Assembly (NCBI RefSeq): GCF_013348785.1
Contig: NZ_CP054691.1
Location: forward strand, 930,001 to 994,000
Source: Gordonia sp. X0973
GTDB lineage: Bacteria > Actinomycetota > Actinomycetes > Mycobacteriales > Mycobacteriaceae
DNA length: 64,000 nt
Reading direction: 5' to 3'
Numbering within the stretch: position 1 is the stretch's first letter; every line of letters begins with the position of its first letter. Both the position numbers and the translations under genes were made by a program. Below are positions 12,794 to 25,819 of this stretch, piece by piece. The notes under the pieces are model-generated. The model saw nothing but the letters and a program-made list of their open reading frames with translations. It had not been told where the DNA came from and searched no databases.

Positions 12794-13648
12794 TCAGCGC
12801 CAGCGTCGGGTGGTCGTCTCGATGACGTTCAGCGTCGTCGAAAATGCCGGGGAGCGTGGAGAGATGAGCGCGATGTGGTTTGCGCCCGGTACCTCGACCA
12901 AGCGGACGCGGGCACCGGGGCAGCGCACCCGGGACATGAATGCGCGCACGTTGCTGATGGGAACGGTGCGGTCGGCTGTGCCGTGTACGGCCACGATCGG
13001 CACCCGGGGGCACCCGATCGCCGCGGGATCGGCCGAGCTGTAGCGCTGCGGCTGCTGATCGGGGGATCCGCCCAGGAAGGCGGCGACGTTGCGGTCGCCG
13101 TTGCGCGCGGCCACGGTGAGCGCCAGCGGAGCGGAAATCGCGATCACCGCGGCCGGCCGCAGACGCATGTGCTGAGCGGCCCACACCGCGAGCTGCCCGC
13201 CCGAGCTGTGCCCGACGAGGAACACCGAACGACTCACCTGCGGGTACAGCACGGAGAGCGCGGTCGCGAAATCGGCTGCCGCGGCGGCGTCGTCCAACGT
13301 CTTGCGCCAGCTGCCGCCGGCACCGATCCGCCGGTACTCCACGTTGTAGACGGCAAAGCCGTGCTCGGTCAGGGTGCGTGCCAGACGCGACGTGCTCGAC
13401 CGGGCGATGTGGCTGCGCCAGGCGCCGCCGTGGAACAACACGATCAGCGGCGCCTGACCCTGCACATGTGACGGCAGATAGAGGTCCCCGACGTTCTGCG
13501 TGGACTCCCCGTCGAGGGTCGGATAGGGCAGCCGGATCGACTGTGACGGGGGAGCGCCGAGCGCGGTCGACTGGTTCCACCCGACGGGCAGCGCGCACGC
13601 GGCGGCGAGCAGGCAGGCACCGATCAGCAGGACGAGGATTCTTTGCAC
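12794..13648 (-). CDS. Alpha/beta-hydrolase lipoprotein (esterase/lipase)
   Basis: A 284-residue secreted hydrolase. The signal peptide ends in a lipobox (LAAAC, Cys18), so it is probably a membrane-anchored lipoprotein. The fold is that of the hormone-sensitive-lipase/BD-FAE type: oxyanion motif FHGGAW (about 73-78), nucleophile elbow GHSSGG, acid in VHGTADRTVP and catalytic His in GANHIALI. It is likely to hydrolyse small acyl esters outside the membrane; the substrate is unknown. The start is GTG. It is divergent from the small His-rich gene at 13802. Confidence 0.82.
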   Translation of the reverse strand: MQRILVLLIGACLLAAACALPVGWNQSTALGAPPSQSIRLPYPTLDGESTQNVGDLYLPSHVQGQAPLIVLFHGGAWRSHIARSSTSRLARTLTEHGFAVYNVEYRRIGAGGSWRKTLDDAAAAADFATALSVLYPQVSRSVFLVGHSSGGQLAVWAAQHMRLRPAAVIAISAPLALTVAARNGDRNVAAFLGGSPDQQPQRYSSADPAAIGCPRVPIVAVHGTADRTVPISNVRAFMSRVRCPGARVRLVEVPGANHIALISPRSPAFSTTLNVIETTTRRWR

Positions 13649-13671
13649 ACCGAAGATACTGCTGCATGCCC

Positions 13672-13690
13672 GCTGAGACCTCGCTGAGAC
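13672..13690. promoter_or_regulatory. Direct repeat GCTGAGAC-N3-GCTGAGAC, likely response-regulator site
   Basis: Two identical octamers 11 bases apart (13672-13679 and 13683-13690), with an inverted related copy (TTCTCAGC) at 13705-13712. Tandem 7-mers with an 11-base period are the usual footprint of OmpR/PhoP-type regulators. The OmpR-type gene begins 450 bases downstream, after a small gene. A related pair (GCTTAAG/GCTGAGT) stands upstream of the partner operon at 18675. Confidence 0.6.
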
Positions 13691-13801
13691 CCCTCCGTTA
13701 TCGGTTCTCAGCCTGCTTCAGACTCCTCCAAGGCCGTCGCTCGCACCCTGGGATCAGATCGTCGCCAACGACGGTCCGCGCCCGACAATCAAGGAGTTGA
13801 C

Positions 13802-14035
13802 ATGCGCAAACTCATCACCGTTCGACCGATGTGGTTCGTCGCCGCCGCGGCGACAGTGGTCCTCGGCACCGGAGCCGGTCTGGGGATCGCCCACGCGGTG
13901 ACCGGGGGATCGGCCCCGTCGATCACGAATCACCACCACCATCACGACAAGGCCACCAAGGGCAAGGACACACAGAACCGTCCGGACATCCCCGGGGTGC
14001 CCGACCGTCCCGAACCGGGCGACGTCCCCGACTGA
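13802..14035 (+). CDS. Small secreted or membrane-anchored protein with His run
   Basis: A 77-residue protein. An N-terminal hydrophobic helix (about residues 11-32) is either a signal peptide or an anchor. The outer part contains five consecutive His (NHHHHHDKATKGKD) and a Pro/Asp-rich tail (RPDIPGVPDRPEPGDVPD). Excellent ribosome binding site (AAGGAG). It precedes the response regulator on the same strand by about 106 bases, and the His run suggests metal binding. It may be an accessory to the two-component system or a target of it. I do not recognise a named family. Confidence 0.7.
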   Translation: MRKLITVRPMWFVAAAATVVLGTGAGLGIAHAVTGGSAPSITNHHHHHDKATKGKDTQNRPDIPGVPDRPEPGDVPD

Positions 14036-14141
14036 GGCGATGGTCGACTACCAGCCGCCGGGGACGGTCTTCGCCGTCCCCGGCCTCGCGTCAAACCCGA
14101 ACTCAGCGTCTCCACAGCCCCGCACGGGCATGGTGGAGGAC

Positions 14142-14816
14142 ATGCGCATTCTCCTCGTCGAGGACGATGTCAACGTCGCCGAGACCGTCCGCCGCATGAT
14201 GGTGGCGGAGGGGTGGGTCGTCGACGTCGTCCACGATGGCACCGCGGGCCTGGAAAAGATCCTCTCCGAGCGATTCGACATCGTCGTCCTCGACATCATG
14301 ATGCCCGGCCGCAACGGCTACGAGGTCGTCCGCGAGGCGCGGGCCGCCGGTGTCTGGACGCCGGTCCTCATGCTCACGGCGAAGGACGGCGAGTACGACC
14401 AGGCCGATGCCTTCGACTTCGGCGCCGACGACTACCTGACGAAACCGTTCTCCTCGGTCGTGCTCACCGCCCGCCTTCGCGCACTCGCCCGTCGCACCGC
14501 GCCGGAGCGCCCCGCGATCCTCACCGCCGGCGACCTCACCCTCGACCCGGCGGCGCATATCGTCAGGCGCGGCGACCAAGAACTCACCCTCACCCCGCGC
14601 GAATTCTCACTCCTCGCATTCCTCATGCGGAACAAGGGCGCCGTGGTGACGAAGACGGAGATCCTCGACGCCGTGTGGGATGTCAACTACCACGGCGACG
14701 AGAACGTCGTCGAGGTCTACGTCAGCTACCTGCGCCGCCGCATCGACACCCCGTTCAATCGCAAGGCGATCGAGACGGTGCGCGGCGTCGGCTACCGGCT
14801 CTCACCCGCCGGCTGA
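14142..14816 (+). CDS. OmpR/PhoB-family response regulator
   Basis: A 224-residue regulator. The receiver domain (1-115) has the acidic pair EDD near the N-terminus, the phosphoacceptor Asp in VVLDIMMPG, and the conserved Lys in LTKPF. The winged-helix domain includes LTPREFSLLAFLMRNKGAVVTKTEILDAVW, YVSYLRRRID and VRGVGYRL. ATG 14142 places the start directly at the receiver; GGAGG is only 2 bases away, so ATG 14130 (adding MVED) is a real alternative. The partner kinase is on the opposite strand and convergent, its 3' end overlapping this gene by 62 bases. Confidence 0.9.
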   Translation: MRILLVEDDVNVAETVRRMMVAEGWVVDVVHDGTAGLEKILSERFDIVVLDIMMPGRNGYEVVREARAAGVWTPVLMLTAKDGEYDQADAFDFGADDYLTKPFSSVVLTARLRALARRTAPERPAILTAGDLTLDPAAHIVRRGDQELTLTPREFSLLAFLMRNKGAVVTKTEILDAVWDVNYHGDENVVEVYVSYLRRRIDTPFNRKAIETVRGVGYRLSPAG

Positions 14817-16242
14817 GATCCCCGATCACCAGGGGCAGGCGGAACCCGACGGCCGCACCGTGCCCGGAACCGCCGGCACCGTCGGAGCCGCCGGACGCAT
14901 CGCCGACGATCACCTCCCCGTCGTGGGCGGTCACGATCTCGCTGACGATGGCCAACCCCAGACCGGAGCCACCGGTGCGCCGTCCGCGCGCCTGATCCAG
15001 GCGCACGAACCGCTCCAGCACCCGTGCCTTGTCCGCGTCGGGGATGCCGGGCCCGTCGTCGGCAACGGTCACCGTCACCGACTCGTCGTCGACGGCCATC
15101 TCGACGGCGATGCGGGTCACCGCGTGGCGCACCGCGTTGTCGACGATGTTGCGCAGCGCGCGGGCGACCTTCTCCCCGTCGACGCTGACCCGCGCCGGAC
15201 GCAGGTGCGCATCGACGACGAGATCGGTCAGCGCCGTCACCCGCGCGACCTCGGCGCCCACGATGTCGTCGAGGTCGGTCTCGGCGACGTGCAGCGCGAG
15301 GCCGCTCTCGTCGGCGCGGGCGAGCAGGAGCAGGTCGGCAACCATCTGCTGCAGGCGCAGCGCGTCGGGGAGCATGACCGATCCGACGGTGTCGGCGTCG
15401 ATCGGCTGGCCCTTCTCGTTGGCCAGATCGAGGAGTCCGACGATCGTCGTCAACGGGCTGTTGAGTTCGTGTGAGGCGTCGTTGACGAAACGGACCTGCC
15501 GCGTGCGCGCGTCTTCGATACGCGTCAGCATGCGGTTCATCGTCACCGCCAGCGTGGAGATCTCGTCACCGGTCGCCGGCACCGGGACGCGCCGGCTCAG
15601 GTCGCCGCCGGAAATCTCGTCGACGCGGCGGCGCAGCTCGTCGACGGGGGCCAGTGCCCGTCCGACGAAGTAGTGGGTCAGCACCGCCATGCCGATCACG
15701 ATCAGCGGGAAGAGGATGCAGCACAGCACGGCCACCAGCACGACGAGGTGGTTGATCGGCTCCTCGGCGGCCCCCACAGCGATGGTGAGGTGCCCGTGGC
15801 GCCCGTCGATTCCCTTGGCGCTGGTGCGGAACTCCACGTCGTCGGCGCTCGCGTGGGCGCCGTGGATGACTCGGACCTGCCCGGCCGGGACCGGGGTGCT
15901 CAGCGGCCGGGAGAACTCCGGATTGTTGACCCGCAGGACCCGCCCGTGGGAGTCGAGGATTTGGATCACGTCCACGTTGCGCGTCGGCGTCAGCAAGGCG
16001 TGGTCGATCCCGTCGATCCCCTCCGACGGGAGCGCAGTGGCGATCTGCTCGGCGCGCGACTGGGTGGCCGAATCGGCGTTGCGCAGCAGGATGTGGCGCA
16101 GCGTGAACACCATCGCGACGGCGGCGACCGCCAGCGCCACGGTCACCAGCGCGGTCGCGAGCAGCGTCAGACGTGCGCGCACCGGCCGCAGCCGGTTCAG
16201 CACCGGCCGCGACCGCACGCGGATCCGCTCGCCGCTCGCCAT
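14755..16242 (-). CDS. Sensor histidine kinase, partner of the OmpR-type regulator
   Basis: A 495-residue membrane kinase: transmembrane helices at about 25-48 and 165-189 enclose an extracytoplasmic sensor domain of about 115 residues. A HAMP domain (190-245) follows, then the dimerisation domain with phospho-acceptor His258 (NDASHELNSPL), N-box DNAVRHA, and G-boxes DDGPGIP and GGSGLGLAIV. It starts 2 bases after the stop of the upstream COG4705 gene and is the last gene of a four-gene operon. The C-terminal 20 residues (about SRRVRAGSRRRAPSRSPCD) are read antisense over the regulator gene and look like a recent extension past a lost stop. Confidence 0.88.
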   Translation of the reverse strand: MASGERIRVRSRPVLNRLRPVRARLTLLATALVTVALAVAAVAMVFTLRHILLRNADSATQSRAEQIATALPSEGIDGIDHALLTPTRNVDVIQILDSHGRVLRVNNPEFSRPLSTPVPAGQVRVIHGAHASADDVEFRTSAKGIDGRHGHLTIAVGAAEEPINHLVVLVAVLCCILFPLIVIGMAVLTHYFVGRALAPVDELRRRVDEISGGDLSRRVPVPATGDEISTLAVTMNRMLTRIEDARTRQVRFVNDASHELNSPLTTIVGLLDLANEKGQPIDADTVGSVMLPDALRLQQMVADLLLLARADESGLALHVAETDLDDIVGAEVARVTALTDLVVDAHLRPARVSVDGEKVARALRNIVDNAVRHAVTRIAVEMAVDDESVTVTVADDGPGIPDADKARVLERFVRLDQARGRRTGGSGLGLAIVSEIVTAHDGEVIVGDASGGSDGAGGSGHGAAVGFRLPLVIGDLSRRVRAGSRRRAPSRSPCD

Positions 16243-16244
16243 TC

Positions 16245-17075
16245 TCACGACGGTAGTGCGCGCGCGTCGTTCTCGATGCGATCCACCCTCGTCACGGTCA
16301 GGAAACCGACCAGCGCGACGATCACCAGCAGGAACACGATGTTGACGATCGACGAGTTCCAGCCCAGACCGCCGTTGGCCCTCGGCTGGGTCAGTAGGTC
16401 GCCCATCGAGGCGCCGAGCGGGCGGGTGACGATGTAGGCCGCCCAGAACGCGAACACCGAGTTCAGCTTGAATCCGAGATGGGCGACGGTGATGACGGCG
16501 ATGATCACCGCGAACATGAGGAGCGACTTCGGGTAACCCAAGGCCATCTTCTCGCCGATGAGGTCGCCGGCAGCGGTGCCGAGCGCGAAGGTCACCAGCA
16601 CGGCGAGCCAATAGAACATTTCACGGCGAGGGGTGCGGATCGAGTGGATCGACAGGGTTCCCTCGACCCGGTACCAGGCGGCGAACACCACCACGAGTGC
16701 CACGGCGAACACGGCCGTCGACACCTCGAGCGGGATGTGCAGCGCGTCGGTCATGTTGTCGGTGATCAACGTGCCGGTCACGCTGATCACCAGGACGGCG
16801 GCCCAGTACACCGCCGGGACATAGCGGTCGACGCGGAACTGGACGGCGAGGATCACCGCCAGCAGGATGACTGTCACGACCGTCGTCCACTGCAGGCCGA
16901 AGCCCAGGTTCATGTTCAGGTAGTCCGCCGCGGTTTCGCCGACGGTCGTCGCGAGGATCTTGATGATCCAGAAATAGATCGTGACCTCGGGAACCTTGCT
17001 CAGCAGATACTTCGTCGGCGACTGGCTCCCTCGCATCCGGGGTGTCAGCTTGTCGTTCATGGGCCTGTCGTTCAT
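16245..17075 (-). CDS. COG4705 membrane protein with fourfold internal repeat (second paralogue)
   Basis: A 276-residue polytopic protein, 8 or so hydrophobic helices. Four copies of an acidic loop motif recur: TTVGETAADYLNMNLGFG, GTLITDNMTDALHIPL, GTAAGDLIGEKMALGY and PLGASMGDLLTQPRANGGLGW. The pattern G-x3-GD/E-x2-L then LG is that of COG4705 'membrane-anchored proteins' of unknown function. Start ATG 17075 with AAAGGA 8 bases upstream, overlapping the PAP2 gene by 4 bases; the histidine kinase follows after 2 bases. Conserved acids inside helices suggest ion or metal handling, but no substrate can be read from the sequence. Confidence 0.75.
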   Translation of the reverse strand: MNDRPMNDKLTPRMRGSQSPTKYLLSKVPEVTIYFWIIKILATTVGETAADYLNMNLGFGLQWTTVVTVILLAVILAVQFRVDRYVPAVYWAAVLVISVTGTLITDNMTDALHIPLEVSTAVFAVALVVVFAAWYRVEGTLSIHSIRTPRREMFYWLAVLVTFALGTAAGDLIGEKMALGYPKSLLMFAVIIAVITVAHLGFKLNSVFAFWAAYIVTRPLGASMGDLLTQPRANGGLGWNSSIVNIVFLLVIVALVGFLTVTRVDRIENDARALPS

Positions 17076-17776
17076 GGGCGGAGTCCTTTCACGGGGAAAC
17101 GGTTGGCGATGCGGTTCAGGAGGTAGGTCGCGATCGGTGGGATCAGCAGGGCGGCCGAGGTGCCCAGCAATGCGCCGCCGACGACGTCGCTGGACCAGTG
17201 CACGCCCAGATACAGCCGGGTCCAGGCGCAGACGACGATCACGGCGGCCGCGACAAGGGCGGCCAGCCCGTGCCAGAGGCGCGGGAGTCCGGCGCCCGCC
17301 ACCAGCAGCAGGGCCACGACGAGCGCGGTGGTGCCGCCGACGTGGCCGGACGGGAAGGAGTAGGTCGCCTCCGGGGTGCCCACCTGCAGGACCTCGGGCG
17401 GTCGCGGCCGCGACACGGCGACCTTGACGACGGTGCCCGCGGCGGCCGCCGCCGCGGCGGCTGCCAGCACCGGCAGTGCGCGCCCGAGGTGGCGGTCACG
17501 CATAACGAGCGCGACGACGATCAGCGCGGTCCACCCGCACATCGCCGCGGGACTGAACAGTCGGCTCAGACCGTCGACGACGGTGGTCAGCCCCGGGGTG
17601 CGGGTGGCGATCAGCTCGCGCAGGATCACCGCGTCGACGCCCAGCGGCCCGGGATGGACCAGGAATACTGCGGCACCGATCAGGACCAGGCCGAACAGGA
17701 CGAGGCCCAGTGCCAGGTGGCCGGTCGCGGGCCGGCCGACGACGAGGGAGCCGGGGGATGGGCGGTCCGGCGTCAC
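17072..17776 (-). CDS. PAP2-family membrane phosphatase
   Basis: A 234-residue integral membrane phosphatase of the phosphatidic acid phosphatase type 2 family. The three catalytic motifs are intact: KVAVSRPRPP (motif 1), SFPSGHVGG (motif 2) and RLYLGVHWSSDVVGG (motif 3, with nucleophile His). It probably dephosphorylates an isoprenoid pyrophosphate or phospholipid at the outer membrane face. The start is GTG in a GTGA overlap with the upstream COG4705 gene, and the stop overlaps the next COG4705 gene by 4 bases, so the three are tightly coupled. Confidence 0.88.
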   Translation of the reverse strand: MTPDRPSPGSLVVGRPATGHLALGLVLFGLVLIGAAVFLVHPGPLGVDAVILRELIATRTPGLTTVVDGLSRLFSPAAMCGWTALIVVALVMRDRHLGRALPVLAAAAAAAAAGTVVKVAVSRPRPPEVLQVGTPEATYSFPSGHVGGTTALVVALLLVAGAGLPRLWHGLAALVAAAVIVVCAWTRLYLGVHWSSDVVGGALLGTSAALLIPPIATYLLNRIANRFPVKGLRP

Positions 17777-18624
17777 CGTGCTGCCCGCTCGTCGCGGCGG
17801 ATGGTGTCGGGGTCGTCGGGATCATCGGGGACGGGAGGCGGCGCGGGGAAGGGCGAGTCGATCCGCGGGCGGCGATAGCCGACGAGGATGCCGACGACGA
17901 GGATCGCCAGCAGCGCGGCCGAGGTTCCCCACGTCCCCAGGCCCAGGCCGCCCTTGGCCACCGGCTTGGAGAGCAGGTCGCCGACCGTGGCGCCGAGCGG
18001 CCGGGTCAGGATGAACGCCAGCCAGAAGAGCAGCACCCCGGAGATGTTGGTGAAGTAATGCGCGGCGAGCAGCGCGGCCATCGTAGCGGCGATGATCGCG
18101 GCGCTGCCGCCGTAGCCGAGGCCGGAACTGTCCGACAGGTAGTCGCCGAATGAGGTGCCCAGCGTGTTGGACAGCAGGATCGCCGCCCAGTACAGCGCCT
18201 CGCCGCGCAGCGTCGTGATGTTGGAGACGTCGAAGGTCTCCCCGCTGAACCGCCAGATCACGAACACGACGACCAGCAGCGACACGAGCAGCGCCGCTCC
18301 CGCCCCGTAGCCGAGCCCGCCGTCGGTGGAGGTACCCGATCCGGGCCCGCGGTTGATGAGGTCGGAGATGGTGGTGCCCGCGGTGCTGGTCGCGGCGATG
18401 ACCGTCCAGTACAGCGCCGGGTGGAAGCTCTTGGCCTTCAACTGCACGGCGAGGCTGACGACGAAAATGCCGAGGAAGAGCAGCGATGCCGCGGCGTACC
18501 CCAGCTTCAGCGTCTGTGCGAGTAGATCGCCGCCGGTTTCACCCAGCGTGGTGGCGGCGATCTTGAGCACCCAGAACAGCACCGTGACCTGGGGCAGTTT
18601 GTAGCGCGACGCGCTGTGGCGCAT
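17773..18624 (-). CDS. COG4705 membrane protein with fourfold internal repeat (first paralogue)
   Basis: A 283-residue protein, first gene of the operon (ribosome binding site AGGAG). The same four acidic motifs as in the second paralogue are visible: TTLGETGGDLLAQTLKLGY, GTTISDLINRG...GGLGYG, GTSFGDYLSDSSGLGYG and PLGATVGDLLSKPVAKGGLGLG. The tail is Pro/Asp-rich (PFPAPPPVPDDPDDPD). It is clearly related to the 16245 gene and probably arose by duplication around the PAP2 gene. The two may form a heteromer. Function unknown. Confidence 0.75.
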   Translation of the reverse strand: MRHSASRYKLPQVTVLFWVLKIAATTLGETGGDLLAQTLKLGYAAASLLFLGIFVVSLAVQLKAKSFHPALYWTVIAATSTAGTTISDLINRGPGSGTSTDGGLGYGAGAALLVSLLVVVFVIWRFSGETFDVSNITTLRGEALYWAAILLSNTLGTSFGDYLSDSSGLGYGGSAAIIAATMAALLAAHYFTNISGVLLFWLAFILTRPLGATVGDLLSKPVAKGGLGLGTWGTSAALLAILVVGILVGYRRPRIDSPFPAPPPVPDDPDDPDTIRRDERAAR

Positions 18625-18674
18625 GACTCTCCTCTTGCGTTCTCCGACTGACGCGTCGACGGTAGGAGTGGAGC

Positions 18675-18692
18675 GCTTAAGGACCGCTGAGT
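18675..18692. promoter_or_regulatory. Direct repeat GCTTAAG-N4-GCTGAGT upstream of the COG4705 operon
   Basis: Two related heptamers with an 11-base period lie 51-68 bases upstream of the first COG4705 start. They resemble the GCTGAGAC pair at 13672-13690 in front of the regulator unit, which suggests that the OmpR-type regulator controls both units. The site is also in the divergent promoter region of the oxidoreductase at 18776. Confidence 0.4.
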
Positions 18693-25195: not shown

Positions 25196-25819
25196 CTAAC
25201 TTCGCGGGGTGATCATCGCGCTCGGTTTCAGCCCGCAGTCGCGCAGTTCGACCGCGGCCAGCGCGCGGATGACCGGTGGATTTCCGGCCCGCCAGTCACC
25301 GGCCGGATCGGCCGAGATGGCGCTGAGCACCTTCAACGGCTGGCCGGTGATGGCCCGCAGCGCCAGTAGGTCGACCCCGGCCTCGGTGTTGCGCAGCCGT
25401 ACGTGGGTGCTCGCGCGCCGGATGAAGCGCCAGCGCATCGGCAGGTATACCGAGAGCAGCATCGCGATCGGCACGATGGCCACCGCGATCGCCAACCACC
25501 ACGCGAAGGTGTGGACCGCTTCGGCCTGGGCGCGTCCGGCGTGGGCGATGGAATCGGCCGCACCACCGGCACCGTCGAAGGGCTTGCTGAGCTTGTCGCC
25601 GACCACCGGGACCTTGTCGGCGCTCTTACCCGCGTCGCGCAGCTTGTCGGCCATGGTGGCCCCGGCCGATTCCATCGTCCGACCGGGTGCGGCCAGCGCC
25701 ATCGTCACATCGAAGACCTTGACGGCCAGCCAGACGCAGAAGGCGGTCCAGGCCAAAGCCCACAGGTCGCCGACGATCTGACGCGTGCGACGGGCCGGGG
25801 TATCCGCGTAGAGCTTCAT
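25196..25819 (-). CDS. Membrane protein of unknown function
   Basis: A 207-residue protein with a hydrophobic helix at about 18-42, a polar region of about 70 residues with Gly/Asp/Lys (MADKLRDAGKSADKVPVVGDKLSKPFDGAGG), a second pair of helices at about 100-125, and a basic C-terminal domain. I infer an N-in protein whose middle lies outside. ATG 25819 is preferred over the upstream 25858 because the extra residues look like non-coding read-through. It lies 4 bases after the TrpF gene in the same direction, so probably in one transcript. Confidence 0.65.
   Translation of the reverse strand: MKLYADTPARRTRQIVGDLWALAWTAFCVWLAVKVFDVTMALAAPGRTMESAGATMADKLRDAGKSADKVPVVGDKLSKPFDGAGGAADSIAHAGRAQAEAVHTFAWWLAIAVAIVPIAMLLSVYLPMRWRFIRRASTHVRLRNTEAGVDLLALRAITGQPLKVLSAISADPAGDWRAGNPPVIRALAAVELRDCGLKPSAMITPRS

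Follow-up and report, generated by a model that had tools for sequence, protein, structure and literature searches.

The window analysed here is a stretch of 64,000 nucleotides from the complete 3.75-Mb genome of Gordonia sp. X0973, and the system in question consists of two facing gene units within it. The right unit, on the minus strand, is a tight operon in the order D1 (COG4705/DUF347), PAP2 phosphatase, D2 (DUF347) and sensor kinase, with 4-bp overlaps at D1/PAP2 and PAP2/D2 and a gap of 2 bp between D2 and the kinase. The left unit, on the plus strand, carries the gene of a small secreted protein followed by that of an OmpR-type regulator; the regulator and kinase genes stand tail to tail, and their 3' ends overlap by 62 bp. 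The gene families, their order, the overlaps and the facing units had been described correctly in an earlier account made from the letters alone (the sequence-only reading), and its proposal that they form one signalling and envelope system was supported by sequence. Because the linkage recurs in relatives and a cis-element is common to both units, the arrangement was taken as more than chance; the module is real and conserved, and probably co-regulated. The features were as follows:

12794-13648, minus strand: lipoprotein alpha/beta-hydrolase (BD-FAE; Pfam), lipobox LAAAC read from the sequence
13672-13689, plus strand: regulator box 1, GCTGAGACCTCGCTGAGA, exact; 11-bp tandem found by TRF; matrix rank 1
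13802-14035, plus strand: small acidic protein, membrane-anchored or secreted, with a local run of His (HHHHH)
14057-14084, plus strand: strong RNA hairpin (fold prediction), intergenic in the left unit
14101-14118, minus strand: regulator box 2; matrix rank 2; 23 bp upstream of the regulator ATG
14142-14816, plus strand: OmpR/PhoB-type response regulator (Pfam Response_reg and Trans_reg_C); recognition helix NVVEVYVSYLRR
14755-16242, minus strand: membrane sensor histidine kinase, two transmembrane helices (Pfam HAMP, HisKA, HATPase_c); start set at an ATG of our choice
16245-17075, minus strand: D2, COG4705/DUF347 of the MmfC1-type clade (Pfam; tree)
17072-17776, minus strand: PAP2 phosphatase, GTG start, catalytic motifs intact (Pfam)
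17773-18624, minus strand: D1, COG4705/DUF347 of the MmfC2-type clade (Pfam; tree; model pLDDT 91)
18675-18692, plus strand: regulator box 3, degenerate; matrix rank 5 in the window; 50 bp upstream of D1

D1 and D2 scored 192 and 200 bits against the DUF347 (PF03988) cut-off of 28.2, each over four stretches, and all eight DUF347 matches that the genome yielded fell in these two proteins, four in each. The PAP2 motifs KxxxxxxRP, PSGH and RxxxxxHxxxD were all intact, as were the phosphotransfer motifs of the kinase and the receiver residues of the regulator. The best undecaprenyl-diphosphatase equivalog score of the PAP2 protein was 48 bits, below the NCBIfam cut-off of 250 bits, and the regulator and kinase missed the cut-offs of the heavy-metal CztRS/CopRS NCBIfam subfamilies (214 versus 279 bits and 198 versus 293 bits). 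The sequence-only reading had held that COG4705 proteins lack a known function; a role as metal transporter has been proposed for them (PMC4531530), and they correspond to mmfC1 and mmfC2 of a described cassette (PMC4914505).

Linkage and the DUF347 pair

Within the genus, 15 of 59 genomes had DUF347; in the family it was present in 29 of 151 genomes sampled and in the phylum in 19 of 296, with the source genome counted. The sequence-only reading had named missing linkage in other genomes as one of two refuting conditions, and the linkage was found. It was counted from phmmer matches to the window proteins, which miss distant PAP2 proteins, and the fragmentary phylum matches in G272 and G434 were excluded. 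In the genus, a kinase match lay within 6 kb of DUF347 in all 15 genomes and a regulator match in 12 of the 15, while PAP2 lay within 500 bp in 13 of 15. Among the other family genomes with DUF347, a two-component gene was found within 6 kb in 21 of 25 and PAP2 within 500 bp in 7 of 25; outside the family, 5 of 13 genomes had a two-component gene within 6 kb. The N-terminal half of the kinase reached at least 200 bits in 21 of 59 genus genomes, namely 14 of the 15 with DUF347 versus 7 of the 44 without (Fisher P 1e-7, uncorrected for kinship), and PAP2 still stood beside the kinase pair in four of the seven congeners where DUF347 was not found. PAP2 and DUF347 were fused in two congeners. The DUF347 matches of L104, L158 and L160 each carried one in-frame stop by the count of the search tool.

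The arrangement had been called an unrecognised one. Side-by-side kinase and regulator genes were seen in 29 loci of the genus and family, of which 25 were convergent, three divergent and one only in the same direction, with the 3' ends overlapping in 19 of the 25 convergent loci; the split of kinase and regulator is therefore a stable trait of the family. The four such loci outside the family were all codirectional. The gene set, for its part, resembles the mmf cassette, as set out below.

DUF347 is a large family, in which 7,997 of 8,000 scored candidates passed E 0.001. A tree of 68 proteins, chosen by us, split with 100/100 support into two clades, one with D1 and MmfC2 and the other with D2 and MmfC1. 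One member of each clade was present in 14 loci, including the window, a Tn6048-type plasmid, Bradyrhizobium, Methylobacterium and Nostoc (the Nostoc pair being flagged for a long branch), and eight other DUF347 pairs were two D2-type paralogues. Since two-clade pairs occur across phyla, the pairing is either old or was transferred as a pair. The D1 model predicted eight long helices. Across 71 sequences, each of the four DUF347 repeats has an Asp retained at 99 to 100%; K21, E29 and R208 are conserved as well, and no His, Cys or Met is conserved to 63%. In L212, DUF347 lies near mcr-9.1, which is followed by a regulator and a kinase, and in L227 it lies near mcr-10.4; a qseBC-like pair has been described downstream of mcr-9 in a paper.

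The small protein had been read as a metal-binding-like His peptide. This was not supported, because the four relatives found (L111, L102, L125 and L126) keep the TGAGfGI-like anchor and the acidic Pro/Glu/Asp tail, which is repeated in three of them, without the His run; the five-His run is the window's own, and L111 has scattered His residues. Most of the regulator loci examined yielded no such small gene by our filter. Comparable places are taken in other phyla by secreted proteins of PepSY or MmfD-like type. Nocardia, Mycobacteroides and Priestia loci encode DUF347 with a C-terminal domain related to free-standing MmfD (fused and free-standing examples include L118:6789-8036 and L215:6795-7244, among others); this domain of L118 was a four-helix bundle in the model, and three free-standing MmfD-like examples fell below every Pfam cut-off. 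The 106-nt stretch that separates the small gene from the regulator gene and holds the hairpin had a fold z of -3.1, with 2 of 200 shuffles equally stable, and the hairpin has no T run.

The direct-repeat box

Box 1 contains the 11-bp tandem upstream of the small gene and was the sole site without a mismatch in the source genome. When GCTGAGA-N4-GCTGAGA was searched with up to two mismatches in 63 loci (0.93 Mb), 91 sites were found at spacing 11, compared with 4-13 sites at each of the control spacings 8, 9, 10, 12, 13, 14 and 22. Sixty of the 91 boxes, in 41 of the 63 loci, lay upstream of cluster genes, at distances of -30 to 350 bp from the start and frequently near 25 bp, the starts in relatives being estimates. 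With at most one mismatch, 32 sites were found versus 1 for the reversed pattern in 12 genomes that had been picked for carrying boxes. A matrix was built from 90 sites, all outside the window, and across the 64 kb it ranked the small-gene box first, the regulator box second and the D1 box fifth; the third-ranked match, at 13658, overlaps box 1 as an extra half-site, and the fourth, at 25308-25331, lies outside the cluster. In the close relative L111, whose operon has no D1, matrix hits preceded PAP2, the regulator and the small gene.

By these sites, the small protein, the regulator and the D1-PAP2-D2-kinase operon have a PhoP/MprA-like direct-repeat box in common, and the two units look like one regulon. 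Control of the right unit by the regulator, whose absence was the other refuting condition of the sequence-only reading, is predicted from the boxes. The hydrolase gene is divergent from the left unit, with its start 23 bp from box 1, and is probably under the same box; with relatives in four fetched loci (L111, L112, L106 and L109), it is probably a further member, which would extend the system further left.

Boxes also accompanied DUF347 genes away from the pair in L100, L151 (pair elsewhere in the genome) and L150 (at least the kinase elsewhere), and none accompanied such genes in L117 and L146. In relatives they further preceded BacA, DedA and ZIP genes. Two-mismatch boxes, which in the source genome were not above control, were seen upstream of three genes there, at 3279243 (L175), 2016746 (L173) and 922700 (L170). 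The L175 box precedes a DedA gene; those of L173 and L170 stand before genes that we take to encode a sigB-like protein and probably a DyP peroxidase, respectively.

Among solved structures, the DNA-binding domain of the regulator was closest to that of Mycobacterium tuberculosis PhoP, and PhoP and MprA-type regulators likewise have a direct repeat with a 4-bp spacer and a near-identical recognition helix. The PhoP site is TCACAGC-N4-TCACAGC, in which Ser216 shares a water with base A6 (PMC4832192), the third base of the site by our reading of the numbering. Unlike that site, the box here is TCTCAGC, with T at the base where PhoP has A, and the position of Ser216 is Val in the linked regulators of the family and Ile in three Nocardia loci. 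The changed residue and the changed base fit each other well, but Val also stands there in an MprA-like regulator.

Lipid carrier, metal and other explanations

We give even odds to an mmf-related envelope-protection set under two-component control, in which PAP2 and D1/D2 recycle the polyprenyl carrier. The kinase would be activated by envelope or cation stress, and the phosphorylated regulator would bind the boxes, boosting both its own expression and the operon; with the gene of its kinase at the end of the operon, this would be a positive feedback. On the outer face, PAP2 would then remove phosphate from the used polyprenyl pyrophosphate carrier, and the D1/D2 pair would move or hand back polyprenyl phosphate, so that wall synthesis continues. 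The carrier in this bacterial group is probably decaprenyl phosphate. The fusion, the box and the two-clade pairing point to lipid-carrier recycling, and this reading was slightly preferred on account of the fusion, the steady presence of PAP2 across the genus and the fact that DUF347 has no conserved soft-metal ligands. More tentatively, with the chances against it, COG4705/DUF347 may join DedA and DUF368 as a third polyprenyl-phosphate translocase family. Its members would work as a pair, one from each clade, with direct coupling to a PAP2 pyrophosphatase (by fusion in two species), and a two-component system of their own would induce them under metal stress or envelope stress.

The chief rival, and a strong one too, is metal transport. 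The DUF347 pair would move a cation and phosphate released by PAP2 would precipitate it outside, as proposed for Frankia, or the set would take metal up, as read for pHB44; the two variants together are possible at well short of even odds. Apart from the Frankia proposal of a DUF347 metal transporter working with UppP (PMC4531530) and the reading of pHB44 as Fe/V import (PMC4914505), this rival draws on the induction of Tn6048 by zinc and lead, on the best regulator and kinase scores being against heavy-metal families, though below cut-off, on the four conserved Asp of DUF347 and on the metal genes that adjoin several plasmid copies. It is strengthened by FetB linkage. In 40 genomes (208 Mb), the 10-kb surroundings of DUF347 made up 0.47% of the sequence, matches near DUF347 being counted by eye and totals summed from tables. 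FetB/UPF0014 was found there in 10 of 37 cases (expected 0.18), DedA in at least 9 of 183 (expected 0.87) and BacA/UppP in 4 of 58 (expected 0.28), these three families having been picked after they were noticed near boxes or loci, which makes the P values for DedA and BacA/UppP optimistic. In the G053, G031, G159 and G117 loci, FetB, DUF347 and DedA stood together near the module. Because FetB is annotated as an iron exporter, the neighbours speak for both the carrier and the metal readings. Of the families chosen as metal comparators, cation-efflux genes were absent near DUF347 among the matches listed (expected 0.75, computed from a total of 158 rather than the table sum of 159), and P-type ATPases were found near it in at least 3 of 244 cases (expected 1.16, P 0.11). 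The absence of strongly conserved His, Cys or Met in DUF347, the poor conservation of the sensor and the unconserved His run of the small protein likewise speak against metal handling.

The boxes could instead belong to a general MprA envelope-stress regulon, with the operon controlled chiefly by something other than the linked regulator. Besides having Val at the Ser216 position, the MprA-like regulator has the box in the promoter of its own gene, which means that MprA could bind these sites too. The recognition helix of this regulator, NALEVYVGYLRR, resembles that of the window regulator. In other genomes, boxes lie upstream of genes presumed to encode an MprA-like regulator (L186) and PepD-like proteins (L188, L194). 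Against the window regulator the MprA-like regulator of L206 scored 182 bits, versus at least 286 bits for the family-linked regulators except L127 (125 bits). This explanation is improbable: no box preceded DUF347 in the family genomes G089, G124, G103 and G112, in which the pair was not seen beside DUF347 and the rest of the genome was not searched for it, loci outside the family held 1 box versus 1-3 at other spacings, and the linked regulator and kinase are themselves preceded by boxes. One two-mismatch site lies just past the end of DUF347 in L120. We regard it as very improbable that PAP2 acts on another phospholipid and that DUF347, instead of being a transporter, assists the kinase in a structural or sensory role. 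In favour of this explanation, the specificity of PAP2 cannot be read from its sequence and its best equivalog scores are below cut-off; against it stand the co-occurrence of DedA and BacA with DUF347 and the eight long helices with conserved charges.

Several results weigh against carrier recycling under the linked pair. The D1 box is degenerate, with mismatches at 4 of 14 positions, and the source genome had no excess of boxes at up to two mismatches (10 versus 11). At the same threshold, no box was found at the cluster in seven loci with the kinase and no DUF347, apart from one distant site; matrix candidates above 9 bits were present in three of the seven. The box may also serve MprA, the FetB linkage favours metal transport, MmfR and MmfS appear no more than distantly related to the window pair (133 and 60 bits), and fold searches of the PDB gave no confident match.

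Recycling of the lipid carrier is essential for wall synthesis, and the paper on C55-P translocases leaves room for further ones (PMC9876793). DUF347 is a concrete candidate, since fusion, operon and promoter box connect it with what is probably a carrier phosphatase. If true, carrier recycling would explain a wall-lipid phosphatase in metal-responsive cassettes such as mmf, and the box defines a testable regulon.

Comparison with known systems

The C55-P translocases DedA/UptA and DUF368/PopT are polytopic and serve lipid-carrier recycling, as proposed here for DUF347, but belong to different families (PMC9876793). Many DedA-PAP2 fusions are reported in the same paper, and the PAP2-DUF347 fusion of two congeners resembles them. 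The UppP-DUF347 operons named in the Frankia paper, which combine a phosphatase with DUF347 as here, are up under lead, and its passages on these operons mention no two-component system (PMC4531530). Among 19 plasmid neighbourhoods, picked for variety and not at random from 40 of 255 records, an OmpR-type two-component gene was close by in 11 (H12 being counted on its annotation as 'ATP-binding protein') and a PAP2/undecaprenyl-diphosphatase gene in nine.

The closest known system is the mmf cassette of Tn6048 (Cupriavidus metallidurans, pMOL98, pHB44), which comprises mmfA (PepSY), mmfB (UPP phosphatase), mmfC1 and mmfC2 (DUF347), mmfD (secreted), mmfR and mmfS (PMC4914505). Plasmid pHB44 raised the bacitracin minimum inhibitory concentration of its host from 40 to 300 ug/ml, an effect tentatively credited to mmfB; pBS64 had no such effect in a host already resistant, and the authors read the cassette as aiding Fe and V uptake (PMC4914505). 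MmfB and the window PAP2 both belong to the PAP2 family, with a weak direct match (E 5e-4), and MmfA and MmfD had no match in window open reading frames of at least 40 aa at E 0.01. The cassette's seven genes run in one direction on a transposon, whereas the units in the window are chromosomal and face each other. Like the window, it has a PAP2-family phosphatase (listed as UPP phosphatase in the cassette), a small secreted protein, both DUF347 clades and an OmpR-type two-component system. The locus is an actinobacterial chromosomal variant of the barely understood mmf (multiple-metal-response) module rather than a wholly new kind of system.

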